From the IMG/VR virus record IMGVR_UViG_3300027833_000263, positions 1 to 20,477 of that record: a stretch of DNA of 20,477 nt; one strand, given 5' to 3'. The stretch comes from a virus. The notes under the pieces were generated by a model. It was not told where the DNA came from. It saw nothing but the letters and a program-made list of their open reading frames with translations, and made no database searches. Positions 5,246 to 19,694 of the stretch are shown piece after piece. The first letter of the stretch is position 1; every line of letters starts with the position of its first letter. Both the position numbers and the translations under genes were made by a program.

Positions 5246-5761
5246 TTACTCCGTGCTTACTCCAAAGTACAAATCGTCAGCGTCATTAGCATACATACCC
5301 CCAGCAAAAGCTTGCGGAGGAGTGGCTGTGTGATCAAATTGCTTAAACTCTACAAGCCCGTCTAAGTTTACATGACCCGTTCCATTCGGAGTAAACGTGA
5401 TGTCTCTATTAACACTGGAGACAATAGATCGAGCCAGAACATCTAGATTGCCTCCAAGTTCTGGAGTAAGATCTTCTACAACGTTTTGTAAACCCCCGCC
5501 AATAATGGTAGCTAAGTCCGTCCATCCAGTAGCCTTCGTTGCGATATTAGACGAGTCTACTAAAAGGTAGAATTTAGAATCAGCCTCATGATAGACTATA
5601 CTAACGTACTCCTTGAGTTGATCGCTAACAGAGGTAAGCCCCGTTAGTCCAGCGTCGTTGGCGACCACTCTACCCCCACCTCTTACGAAGTTAGAATCAA
5701 CAAAAGCTTTTGCTGCGTTATTATGGCCGTATTCGCCTGCTCTTCCTACTTCAACTGGCAT
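5246..5761 (-). CDS. Tail fibre-associated structural protein (171 aa)
   Basis: A 171-residue protein whose start codon overlaps the stop of the collagen-like fibre gene by one base (TGATG). It begins MPVEVGRAGEYGHNNAAKAF and contains LQNVVEDLTPELGGNLDV (around 90-107) followed by ITFTPNGTGHVNLDGL. The segment D-L-T-P-E-L-G-G-N-L-D is a recurrent fibre motif in marine myo- and podoviruses, and the T-P-N-G-T-G-x-V strand is another. The C-terminal part (FAGGMYANDADDLYFGV) resembles a surface-exposed cap sequence. No enzymatic residues are evident. It is probably part of the fibre complex with its neighbours. Confidence 0.75.
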   Translation of the reverse strand: MPVEVGRAGEYGHNNAAKAFVDSNFVRGGGRVVANDAGLTGLTSVSDQLKEYVSIVYHEADSKFYLLVDSSNIATKATGWTDLATIIGGGLQNVVEDLTPELGGNLDVLARSIVSSVNRDITFTPNGTGHVNLDGLVEFKQFDHTATPPQAFAGGMYANDADDLYFGVSTE

Positions 5762-7389
5762 CAGGATATGTTTAAGAAATTGTTGTTAAATGCGTTAGTT
5801 GAATTGGATTTGTAAACCGTGTAATCAGTTGAGACCCCGTATCGGTTGCTTAAAGTAAAGGTACCTAAATTAGTAAAAGCCCCTATGGTTGGAGACACAC
5901 CATCTAAAGTTAGATCCTGTATAGTGTCGGTACCTGGATAAAATATATACATAAACTTATTGCTCGTTTGAACGGTGTATGTATTAGTATTCCCTATACT
6001 GTCAGGATAAGATCCTGTCTTGATCTCTCTTTCATTATTGCCACTGTCGTCACCACCAAACGCTGCATAAACAGTTTGAACGGCGGACTGAGAAGATCCA
6101 GTAGTCAAGGCTGTTGTGTCAAAACACACCTGATAAGAGTAGTAATAGTTTATGCTGGAAAAATCGCTAGATGTGTCGGTTCCATAAGTGCTATCAACAA
6201 CAATCCTATATTCATGAGATGTGGCCTCCGCTGTTAAATCAGTAGATCCGTCTGTAGCAACAGTAATTGAGTCCGTGTTTATAGCCAGAGAGATGTTATT
6301 CTGCGTAGATCCATTACCTAAAGAAGCAAGGTTTGTTGTAGAGTTAGGTGTTGTTATCTCCCTGTAATTGCTACCTATTTTAACCTGTACAACAGAATTA
6401 ATCAACGGATCATAAAGCTCGTCCCTTCTTACGTCATAACGAAGAGTAGATTGAACATCGCCATACTCTCTAGTTGTAGAGGTTGTACCCGTTGCAGCAG
6501 AAATAGAAGAGTTGCTCCTAGTTATTTGTTTGTTGCTAATGTCTGGAGCGTCAAAGCTATTGGCTGTTGTAAAGACGTTGGCAGTCTGTTCAGTTGTACC
6601 GCTAGTGCTGTCTGTTACCCTAAGACGAAAATGAAACACGTTATTGCTTGCCCAAGCTTCTCCAGTACTGTGAACCTTTGAGAGAAGCGAAGCCCCAAAA
6701 GTAACCTCTGAGGTTGTGTAGGATTGAACTGTAGTCCAAGAACCCGTAGGAGTGGTAGTGTTAGTAGATAACTGATACTCAAGAACAGCTGTACCTGTAG
6801 CTCCTTGGTTAGCAATACCGAAGTTTATAGAAGATATAGTTACAGAAGAAGCGTTTGAAGGGTGTTGATAATCAGGACCAGCAAGAGTAAAGCTAGGGCT
6901 AGGATTAACAGCGTCCGTGAATGCGTCAATCAAAAGCTCTGAAGCAGTTTTTCCGCTTGCGGGAATGGTATCTCCGTTCTTGTACTTACCGAAGGTTTTT
7001 ATCAATCCGCTTACCGTGGGCATGTTAGCCACGTAGTTCTGAGTGAAAGTTATCTGACCTCCGTCAGCACCATCTGCTCCGTCAGCACCATCTGCTCCGT
7101 CAGCTCCCGCAGCTCCCGCAGGTCCTTGAGCGCCAGCAGGTCCCGTATCGCCCTGAGCGCCAGCAGGTCCTTGAGCGCCAGCAGGTCCTTGAGCGCCCGT
7201 AGGTCCAGCGGCCCCAGCAGCTCCAGCAGGCCCAGCACCAATAGCGCCAGCTACCGTTACATTATTTGCTACCGTCTGATTTATTCTTACTATTTTGGTC
7301 TCCGTTGTGTTTACAATAGAAACCTTTATCAACCCTCCAGTAGAGCTAGATACAATTATTTTAGAAGGTTGGTCTAAGCTTATTGGCAT
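5761..7389 (-). CDS. Collagen-like tail fibre protein (542 aa)
   Basis: Residues 1-50 form a short N-terminal domain (MPISLDQPSKIIVSSSTGG). Residues 53-110 are an unbroken run of about twenty Gly-x-y triplets: first G-P-A, G-A-Q and G-P-T types, then five G-A-D repeats. This should form a collagen-like triple helix, known in phages as a trimeric fibre shaft. From about 113 to the end the protein is Ser/Thr/Asn-rich and beta-like, with Ig- or fibronectin-like spacing (SPSFTLAGPDYQHPSNAS, VLEYQLSTNT, VFHFRLRVTDSTSG). It ends with a domain around YPGTDTIQDLTLDGVSPT and LSNRYGVSTDYTVYKS. The protein is therefore probably a homotrimeric fibre with a globular distal tip. The stop overlaps the next ATG, and the start lies nine bases after the previous stop codon. 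Confidence 0.88.
   Translation of the reverse strand: MPISLDQPSKIIVSSSTGGLIKVSIVNTTETKIVRINQTVANNVTVAGAIGAGPAGAAGAAGPTGAQGPAGAQGPAGAQGDTGPAGAQGPAGAAGADGADGADGADGADGGQITFTQNYVANMPTVSGLIKTFGKYKNGDTIPASGKTASELLIDAFTDAVNPSPSFTLAGPDYQHPSNASSVTISSINFGIANQGATGTAVLEYQLSTNTTTPTGSWTTVQSYTTSEVTFGASLLSKVHSTGEAWASNNVFHFRLRVTDSTSGTTEQTANVFTTANSFDAPDISNKQITRSNSSISAATGTTSTTREYGDVQSTLRYDVRRDELYDPLINSVVQVKIGSNYREITTPNSTTNLASLGNGSTQNNISLAINTDSITVATDGSTDLTAEATSHEYRIVVDSTYGTDTSSDFSSINYYYSYQVCFDTTALTTGSSQSAVQTVYAAFGGDDSGNNEREIKTGSYPDSIGNTNTYTVQTSNKFMYIFYPGTDTIQDLTLDGVSPTIGAFTNLGTFTLSNRYGVSTDYTVYKSNSTNAFNNNFLNIS
7061..7235 (-). repeat. Tandem short repeats encoding the Gly-x-y collagen shaft
   Basis: The DNA is repetitive as well as the protein. 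An 18-bp unit is exactly repeated at 7061-7078 and 7079-7096 (the G-A-D triplets), and units related to gagcgccagcaggtcc recur several times between about 7115 and 7210 (the G-P-A and G-A-Q triplets). Near-identical codons make the tract prone to slippage or recombination that would change shaft length in steps of whole triplets. Confidence 0.85.
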
Positions 7390-13921: not shown

Positions 13922-14221
13922 TTAGTTTAGTGAAATACCTAAGTCTCCGAGAAGCCCATCGAGGGAATCTTCATCGGGCTGGTACATTGCGTCCATCAAT
14001 TCTTTAATTACTTCTAGCTCATCCCTACTGTCTAGGTGAAAGCTATACATCGTTTTTACTTGAGCCATGTCATCTTCTGAGTCCATGTCGTCTTCATCAA
14101 AAAGACCTATAACTACAGAGGCGAGAAGGCGATCTTTAACTTCGAACTCTTCTATGAGCTCCTCCATCTTTTTTACCAAATGGTACATTTCCGCTAGGAA
14201 CTGTGTGTCTTTGCCTTCCAT
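13922..14221 (-). CDS. Acidic helical protein of unknown function (99 aa)
   Basis: A 99-residue, strongly acidic and mostly helical protein. It has an N-terminal coiled-coil-like segment (FLAEMYHLVKKMEELIEEF), an acidic loop (LFDEDDMDSEDDMAQ) and a C-terminal part ending DEDSLDGLLGDLGISLN. The acidic, Met-rich character would suit a protein that mimics DNA or binds a basic partner, but no family is recognised. It is the first gene of the pre-packaging operon, starting 20 bases after a TATATTTG box whose region also carries an opposing promoter. Confidence 0.7.
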   Translation of the reverse strand: MEGKDTQFLAEMYHLVKKMEELIEEFEVKDRLLASVVIGLFDEDDMDSEDDMAQVKTMYSFHLDSRDELEVIKELMDAMYQPDEDSLDGLLGDLGISLN

Positions 14222-14225
14222 GATA

Positions 14226-14233
14226 TAACTTTG
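14226..14233 (+). promoter_or_regulatory. Plus-strand -7 box TAACTTTG
   Basis: TAACTTTG fits TAnnTTTG and lies 27 bases before the ATG of the winged-helix gene. It is only eight bases from the oppositely directed late box at 14242-14249, so the two promoters face each other and their start sites would overlap. Confidence 0.5.
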
Positions 14234-14241
14234 TTGTATTC

Positions 14242-14249
14242 CAAATATA
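14242..14249 (-). promoter_or_regulatory. Late promoter -7 box TATATTTG for the pre-packaging operon
   Basis: Minus-strand TATATTTG (followed by GA where the other boxes have CA), 20 bases upstream of the 99-aa gene at 14221. It lies inside the leader of the plus-strand winged-helix gene. Confidence 0.68.
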
Positions 14250-14260
14250 CAACTTTAATT

Positions 14261-14677
14261 ATGCCAAAGTCTGAAGTAAAGAAGTCAAAATTATTTAGAG
14301 AGTCGTCAAAACTTGCTGACAAGTACGTAAAGCACAACTACCTAAAGAATATCAGGAACGTCAAGACTGAGTTTATCTTAAAAAGTAAGATACCTGGGAA
14401 CTGGTTGGACTTTATGCTATGGACATATGACTTAGAATTCTTTACTATATGGTACGCGGCGGACGAGTACGGAATGTATAAAGACAACCTAGCGGACAGA
14501 CTTATATACCCTATGCTAAAAGAAGGTTATTTATACAAGCACTTCGATAAGCTCACCCCTTCTCAGACAAGGGAAGATCACTTGTTTCGTGATGAGACAA
14601 AATACAACTACCGTGTAAGATATGCACTATCGCAGAAAGGCAGAATGGCGGTACAGCGTTTTTACAACGCACTTTAA
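14261..14677 (+). CDS. Winged-helix (MarR-like) DNA-binding protein, plus-strand island
   Basis: ATG at 14261 gives 138 residues; an upstream TTG at 14231 is rejected because it lies inside the promoter. The basic N-terminus (MPKSEVKKSKLFRESSKL) is followed by a core with the spacing of a winged helix: FMLWTYDLEFFTIWYAADEY, then a recognition-helix candidate DNLADRLIYPMLKEGYLYKH, then a wing and helix NYRVRYALSQKGRMAVQRFY. Y-x-L-S-x-K-G-x-x-x-V near the end is typical of MarR/PadR-type proteins. It is the only likely regulator in the window. It is transcribed against the late operon, its promoter opposes the late promoter, and its stop overlaps the end of the M15 peptidase gene by four bases. 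A switch role for late transcription is plausible. Confidence 0.65.
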   Translation: MPKSEVKKSKLFRESSKLADKYVKHNYLKNIRNVKTEFILKSKIPGNWLDFMLWTYDLEFFTIWYAADEYGMYKDNLADRLIYPMLKEGYLYKHFDKLTPSQTREDHLFRDETKYNYRVRYALSQKGRMAVQRFYNAL

Positions 14678-18455: not shown

Positions 18456-18505
18456 ACTTGCATTATGCACAGGAAAATGGCAGGTGAAATCAGTTCCATC
18501 AAAAT

Positions 18506-18537
18506 TTGGGATTACGCTTTTCGTCGCCGTATCTTTG
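18506..18537 (+). promoter_or_regulatory. Early promoter, TTG-N21-TATCTTTG
   Basis: TTG at 18506-18508 and TATCTTTG at 18530-18537 with a 21-base spacer fit the Bacteroidetes primary-sigma consensus at both elements. It reads rightward, 39 bases before the ATG of the H1-like gene. Confidence 0.85.
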
Positions 18538-18576: not shown

Positions 18577-19134
18577 ATGTCGAAGACATCACAAACCCCC
18601 CGTATCGAACTGCTTAAGCAGTTAAAGTCAAACGTCAATAGCTTTGCTTTCACTCCTACGGAGTCTAAGCGAGAGGCGGTACAGAAATCCATCGAAGCCC
18701 TTCAGGGCTTCCTTGAAGCCGTCGAGGTCGTTGCCGCGAAGCCAAAGGCTTCTAAGCCAAAGTCAGCTAAGAAGCCGAAGGCTACTAAGCGAAAGCCGAC
18801 CAAAGCGGTCAAACGTCCGAAGCGTACATCTGAAGCGGGTCTTGAGCTTGCTCAAGCTAAGGACGGCATCGGAATTGGCGAAGCCAAGAAGACCAAAGTA
18901 GTCAGTGCCATCACAGGGGGTGCAGCACAAGCACTTGAGCAGCGTATGGAAATCCCTGCTCCAGAGCCGAAGGCTAAGAAGAAAGCGGTATTGGAAGTGT
19001 TTACACTTCTCGACGGTGAATCGCCGCAAGATGCCGTTCGTCGTCGCCGCCTAGAGCAAGAGCAGGAGCGTACTGCCCTTGAGGCTGAGGCGTTGATGAG
19101 CGGAGCACCTGACTTCGACGAGTCTCCTTTCTGA
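18577..19134 (+). CDS. Histone H1-like basic protein with SSB-type C-terminal tail
   Basis: A 185-residue early protein. Residues 9-52 are helical (IELLKQLKSNVNSFAF, KSIEALQGFLEAVEVV). Residues 54-84 are an H1-like run of Lys, Pro, Ala and Ser (AKPKASKPKSAKKPKATKRK and following), likely to bind DNA or RNA. A glycine-rich turn, a second basic patch (131-136) and a charged helix (about 150-172, VRRRRLEQEQERTALEAEA) follow. The last residues, PDFDESPF, closely resemble the SSB tip DFDDDIPF that docks on replication and repair proteins through its final Pro-Phe. No OB fold is visible, so it is not an ordinary SSB. First gene after the strongest early promoter. It ends with tandem stops TGA-TAA inside a palindrome. 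It may compact DNA, recruit host repair proteins, or mimic the SSB tail. Confidence 0.78.
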   Translation: MSKTSQTPRIELLKQLKSNVNSFAFTPTESKREAVQKSIEALQGFLEAVEVVAAKPKASKPKSAKKPKATKRKPTKAVKRPKRTSEAGLELAQAKDGIGIGEAKKTKVVSAITGGAAQALEQRMEIPAPEPKAKKKAVLEVFTLLDGESPQDAVRRRRLEQEQERTALEAEALMSGAPDFDESPF

Positions 19135-19454: not shown

Positions 19455-19466
19455 CTAAAATTAAAT

Positions 19467-19497
19467 TTGGAATAACGGAAAATCTGTTATATCTTTG
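19467..19497 (+). promoter_or_regulatory. Second early promoter, TTG-N20-TATCTTTG
   Basis: TTG at 19467-19469 and TATCTTTG at 19490-19497 with a 20-base spacer. It starts the coupled chain of small early genes, 41 bases before the first ATG. Confidence 0.85.
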
Positions 19498-19538: not shown

Positions 19539-19694
19539 ATGCATAACACAAGCAAGCAAACGGCGATGAACGCCTTGTTCAACGATGTTCAATTCTTCAG
19601 CATGGACGTAGTCCGTAACACATCCCAATGGGATGCACTCACTTGCGATGAGCAGATGAGGTTGGAAGACCTTGTAAACACCGACGAAGTATGA
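19539..19694 (+). CDS. Small early protein (51 aa)
   Basis: ATG at 19539-19541, TGA at 19692-19694. The 51-residue acidic product starts MHNTSKQTAMNALFNDVQFF and contains a helix QWDALTCDEQMRLEDLVN. It is the first gene after the second early promoter. Its stop overlaps the next ATG as ATGA. Promoter, shared leader element and coupling together make it real despite its size. No function is known; small acidic early proteins in phages often inhibit host enzymes. Confidence 0.68.
   Translation: MHNTSKQTAMNALFNDVQFFSMDVVRNTSQWDALTCDEQMRLEDLVNTDEV

Follow-up and report, generated by a model that had tools for sequence, protein, structure and literature searches.

A basic phage protein with a histone-H1-like tract and, in some lineages, an SSB-type Pro-Phe end in uncultured phages of Bacteroidota

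The tip of SSB is a hub peptide which is read by many genome-maintenance enzymes. Among the SSBs of Bacteroidota with a complete end all 78 finish in LPF, and 72 of them in DDLPF. Histone-H1-like, AlgP and Hc2-type proteins, on the other side of the comparison made here, carry Lys-Pro-Ala tails. A search of a limited paper collection for phage mimics of the C-terminal SSB peptide (SSB-Ct) found no paper. In this work we analyzed a stretch of 20,477 nucleotides of viral DNA (IMG/VR record IMGVR_UViG_3300027833_000263, positions 1 to 20,477; the window), in which the first gene of the rightward operon, an intact ORF with an ATG start at 18577-19134 (+), encodes a basic phage protein of 185 aa with the C-terminus PDFDESPF. 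As in the SSB-Ct of Bacteroidota, acidic residues are followed by a terminal Pro-Phe, and in one sister clade of the protein (TSDDLPF) the DDLPF end is identical to that of SSB. Unlike SSB, the basic protein has no predicted OB fold, a Lys/Pro tract stands in place of the ssDNA-binding domain, and its end varies across the family. With the H1-like, AlgP and Hc2-type tails it shares the low-complexity, strongly positive K/P/A tract, but it gives no Pfam or PHROGs match, and a helical hairpin and a conserved C-terminal region accompany the tract.

The protein begins with a helical hairpin at residues 7-48 (18595-18720, +), supported by alignments and by an AlphaFold2 model (pLDDT about 82-93), the two helices spanning residues 7-25 and 29-48 when a 17-sequence alignment is used. 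The hairpin is kept in most relatives, reaching the most distant ones, and Foldseek and VIA fold searches with it returned only generic helical pairs of the PDB (Z ≤ 6.3). Residues 54-84 (AKPKASKPKSAKKPKATKRKPTKAVKRPKRT; 18736-18828, +) contain 12 K, 3 R, 5 P and 5 A, giving a net charge of +15 in a protein with an overall pI of 9.8; this tract differs in length among relatives and is predicted to be disordered (pLDDT about 50-58). A conserved C-terminal helix at residues 150-174 (GESPQDAVRRRR..LEAEALM; 19024-19098, +; pLDDT about 64-81) precedes the SSB-Ct-like end DFDESPF, residues 179-185 (19111-19131, +), which is lineage-specific. The middle and tail are disordered in the model from the 17-sequence alignment and no beta strands are present, so that an OB fold is not predicted. 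The Pfam SSB domain (PF00436) does not match the protein, nor does it match any of the 18 relative contigs searched, whereas 11 of 14 control genomes gave a match. The preliminary description of this DNA had proposed an H1-like lysine/proline tract joined to an SSB-type acidic Pro-Phe tip without an OB fold, and all three elements are borne out. Sequence searches of Pfam, PHROGs and the PDB gave nothing meaningful, no homologue of the basic protein or of one distant relative was found among 50,697 named phages, and there were no relatives in the bacterial genomes searched.

The phage is an uncultured, marine-type phage of Bacteroidota. Both terminase and portal have their matches in a podovirus-like group of phages of Flavobacteriia, so the host is probably a member of Flavobacteriia; the closest named relatives are the unclassified podovirus MW202828, Flavobacterium Elemovirus and Cellulophaga phi38:1 (Pervagoviridae). 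Kolpuevirus (Crassvirales) is present among the terminase matches, outside the listed best ones; the nearest named relatives (MW202828, Elemovirus, Pervagoviridae phages) are not Crassvirales. A crAss-like label was not adopted: of four giant proteins searched for the RNA-polymerase motif DxDGD, three gave no match, and the lone match in the fourth is unconvincing. The structural genes run leftward, and among them is 5761-7389 (-), whose product, a structural protein, has a collagen-like GPAGAQGPAGAQG tract. Within this leftward block lies a solitary rightward gene at 14231-14677 (+); a relative of its product (138-165 aa, MPKSTVKK..QKGRLAVQRFYN.L) occupies the equivalent place in 6/6 long relative contigs. 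The gene of the basic protein lies beyond a divergent intergenic region and is the first rightward gene past it, an arrangement that the window shares with six long relative contigs. About 40 bases upstream of its ATG there is a Bacteroidota-type promoter-like site, TTTG-N21-TATCTTTG (18505-18537, +), which recurs in L007 and L010 and in a looser form in L008, but which most relatives lack. Three such matches occur in the window where 0.76 are expected; the others are at 14242-14268 (-), between the divergent genes 13922-14221 (-) and 14231-14677 (+), and at 19466-19497 (+; TTTG-N20-TATCTTTG), upstream of a small gene at 19539-19694. In L007 a similar stretch (TTTG..TACCTTTG) is found immediately 3' of the basic-protein gene. 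Since the gene leads the rightward operon, early expression is likely; of the earlier designation as the first early gene, "first" holds in the window and the six long contigs, while "early" is read from position only.

Relatives of the basic protein were collected by IMG/VR profile searches, which gave about 30 distinct full sequences and a more distant group. Conservation is highest in the N-terminal hairpin and in approximately 100 residues preceding the tip, and the middle tract varies in length; except in the most distant group, the conserved region up to "LEAEAL" is present throughout. What follows the conserved xAP/GCP, on the other hand, is hypervariable and differs by lineage. In the window clade and L003 the tails are DFDESPF, TFDDCPF, EFDESPF and DFGDSPF, in one sister clade TSDDLPF or TSDDFPF, and in another ADTAPF, where only the terminal F is added and the Pro belongs to the conserved xAP. 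In clade IV (10 rows) the tail is PSFAPAV and the Pro-Phe end is missing, while L248 has an intermediate form (DMMEPSFAPAV). The family tails also include NPMLEPSFAPAV, and other tails without Pro-Phe are GAPEVF, STEA, NAEA, MNFEA, GAPQVA, QPA, QTA and EPMEA. The tree shows the Pro-Phe end in the window clade and L003 and in both the TSDDLPF and the ADTAPF clade; the nested ten-row clade lacks it. The distant phage L237 ends in QTSSEVQPF and its sisters in GAPQVA or QPA, which points to a second, independent Pro-Phe end; the end on the basic protein has thus probably arisen at least twice. Given the hypervariability after xAP, the acidic Pro-Phe end is lineage-specific and optional, coming and going in a family that it does not define, and because many relatives are without it the tip cannot be the core function of the protein. 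The expectation of a D-F-D-x-x-P-F end kept family-wide against a variable middle therefore fails, with APAV, EVF, STEA, QVA and MNFEA tails among the relatives, and homologues lacking the acidic end, named in advance as a result that would count against the proposal, do occur. What holds of the expected tip conservation is narrower: in the window clade and two sister clades Pro-Phe is kept as its flanks change.

These phages also encode an SSB-like protein of their own. This protein of ~100 aa (P0007; L027:6346-6648) is known from other relative contigs, the window and its nearest relatives ending before the module concerned, and lies beside a RecE-like exonuclease, a primase/helicase and a putative annealing protein, the last being our reading of an uncharacterised family. 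All 88 of the copies found have a Pro-Phe end (DLPF, DIPF, DMPF, TIPF and others), and small proteins of the equivalent module in named relatives end in HDDLPF (elemo) and SDDVPF (MW202828). P0007 has no relative among the 50,697 named phages. Its model has an OB-like strand order but a pLDDT of 63 and no PDB match (Z ≤ 2.2), for which reason we rejected it as a proven OB fold; with a model this poor, its status as a candidate phage SSB follows from position and tip. P0007 and the basic protein have the Pro-Phe end and their genomes in common, but they differ in sequence and the tip of P0007 is invariant. Since the phages have this candidate SSB, whose tip is invariant, the tip on the basic protein may be recognised not by a host protein but by one of the phage that normally reads the phage's own SSB. 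Pro-Phe ends are seen as well on proteins at L324:6219-8078 (-), L326:13723-16167 (+) and L325:9545-11437 (-), which finish in NNEIPF, PIVRPF and IVPNPF; in two cultured relatives these are primase/helicase or primase-polymerase proteins, and in MW202828 the carrier is a large VirE-like protein.

Several unrelated small early proteins of these phages carry Pro-Phe ends. An early protein of 60 aa ends in AEELPF, ADELPF or NEELPF (L276:11893-12075 (-), and also L272 and L279; one of the cases falls below the codon-bias filter), and in these three contigs the basic protein is tipless, in one case ending in MNFEA, or was not found. An early protein of 140 aa (MYKIRFHLGRG; L107:6690-7136 (+), and also L109, L111 and L112) has acidic Pro-Phe ends (EDPVDSPPF, NEPEPPF) in a few phages; since its relatives end in NHECEE or similar, the Pro-Phe is an addition, and in the clade carrying EDPVDSPPF the basic protein ends in APAV, without the tip. 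Exactly one further Pro-Phe-ending protein was present in 10/19 of the long contigs with the SSB-like gene and two in 0/19, the extra carrier being the basic protein in 6/10, the 60-aa protein in 3/10 and the 140-aa protein in 1/10. The contigs are related, so this pattern is suggestive and not a statistic. That the phages keep one extra SSB-tip peptide moving between unrelated small early proteins, as a carrier-switching mimicry of the SSB hub, is a speculative and rather doubtful extension of these observations.

A basic protein of DNA-condensing or nucleoid type could instead have a drifting tail without a specific partner, with Pro-Phe as one among several neutral endings inherited within clades. 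The family-wide hypervariability after xAP is what such drift would produce, as is the missing tip in clade IV and the distant members, and the DNA near the tip is so well conserved within clades that the apparent conservation may reflect recent descent. It fits less well with the frequency of the end: of 705 distinct tails (289 gene families from 21 long contigs), 9 end in Pro-Phe where 1.13 would be expected, and when the SSB-like family is left out there are still 6, in three families. This ~8-fold excess, with probably more than one origin, indicates that the end goes beyond chance. Pro-Phe is invariant in the 15 relatives that bear the tip, although at least 4 changes have occurred at each of positions -3 and -4; the Pro codon has changed 4 times, always silently. 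The silent changes also speak against drift, but a Pro-Phe end was the condition for including the 15 rows, a bias that led us to down-weight them as proof of selection and to treat the support that they may lend as weak. We regard the drifting tail as the main rival of a docking role, quite possible though somewhat less probable.

If the acidic end were an internal regulator, it would fold back onto the Lys/Pro tract, mimic nucleic acid and tune DNA binding; a basic tract and an acidic tail within one chain would suit this role, and the acidic C-terminal tips of Hfq (PMC5606850), which mimic nucleic acid, offer a precedent for autoregulation. Such a role fits poorly because the ADTAPF clade retains the Phe with just one acidic residue, which also favours a docking contact that would be hydrophobic over charge alone, and the tails of clade IV are acid-poor; overall it is the Phe that persists and not the charge, and we consider internal regulation unlikely. 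Clamp motifs end in hydrophobic or aromatic residues and terminal residues often serve as degrons, so the end could also be a sliding-clamp (DnaN) peptide or a C-terminal degradation signal instead of an SSB-type tip. The tail lacks the Gln-Leu core that clamp motifs have, however, and the exact match of one clade to the host DDLPF would be left without an account, making this the least probable of the explanations weighed.

Our preferred reading, to which we give a probability of about 0.4 and which is accordingly tentative, is that of an accessory DNA-binding early protein which in some lineages presents an SSB-Ct-type docking peptide to the readers of SSB tips. The helical hairpin would oligomerise, so that the protein self-associates, and the Lys/Pro tract, judged by its composition, would bind DNA non-specifically. 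In the lineage of the window the hypervariable C-terminus would have become the docking peptide, its terminal Pro-Phe entering the pocket of SSB-interacting enzymes; candidate partners are host RecO, PriA, ExoI or RNase HI, or phage recombination and replication proteins that read the phage SSB-like protein. Enzymes docked in this way might be brought to the phage DNA or withheld from the host SSB, and recruitment appears slightly likelier, the peptide being linked to a tract that would bind DNA. The SSB-tip mimicry put forward in the preliminary description survives in part: the form of the tip matches host SSBs on a protein with no OB fold, but the end is not family-wide and its reader may be phage-encoded.

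If the tip reading fails, the basic protein is one more small basic early phage protein. If it is true, a tip on a non-SSB, DNA-coating protein would be a simple means to steer or starve the network of enzymes that read the SSB tip, and the lineage pattern supplies natural tip-plus and tip-minus versions of one protein.
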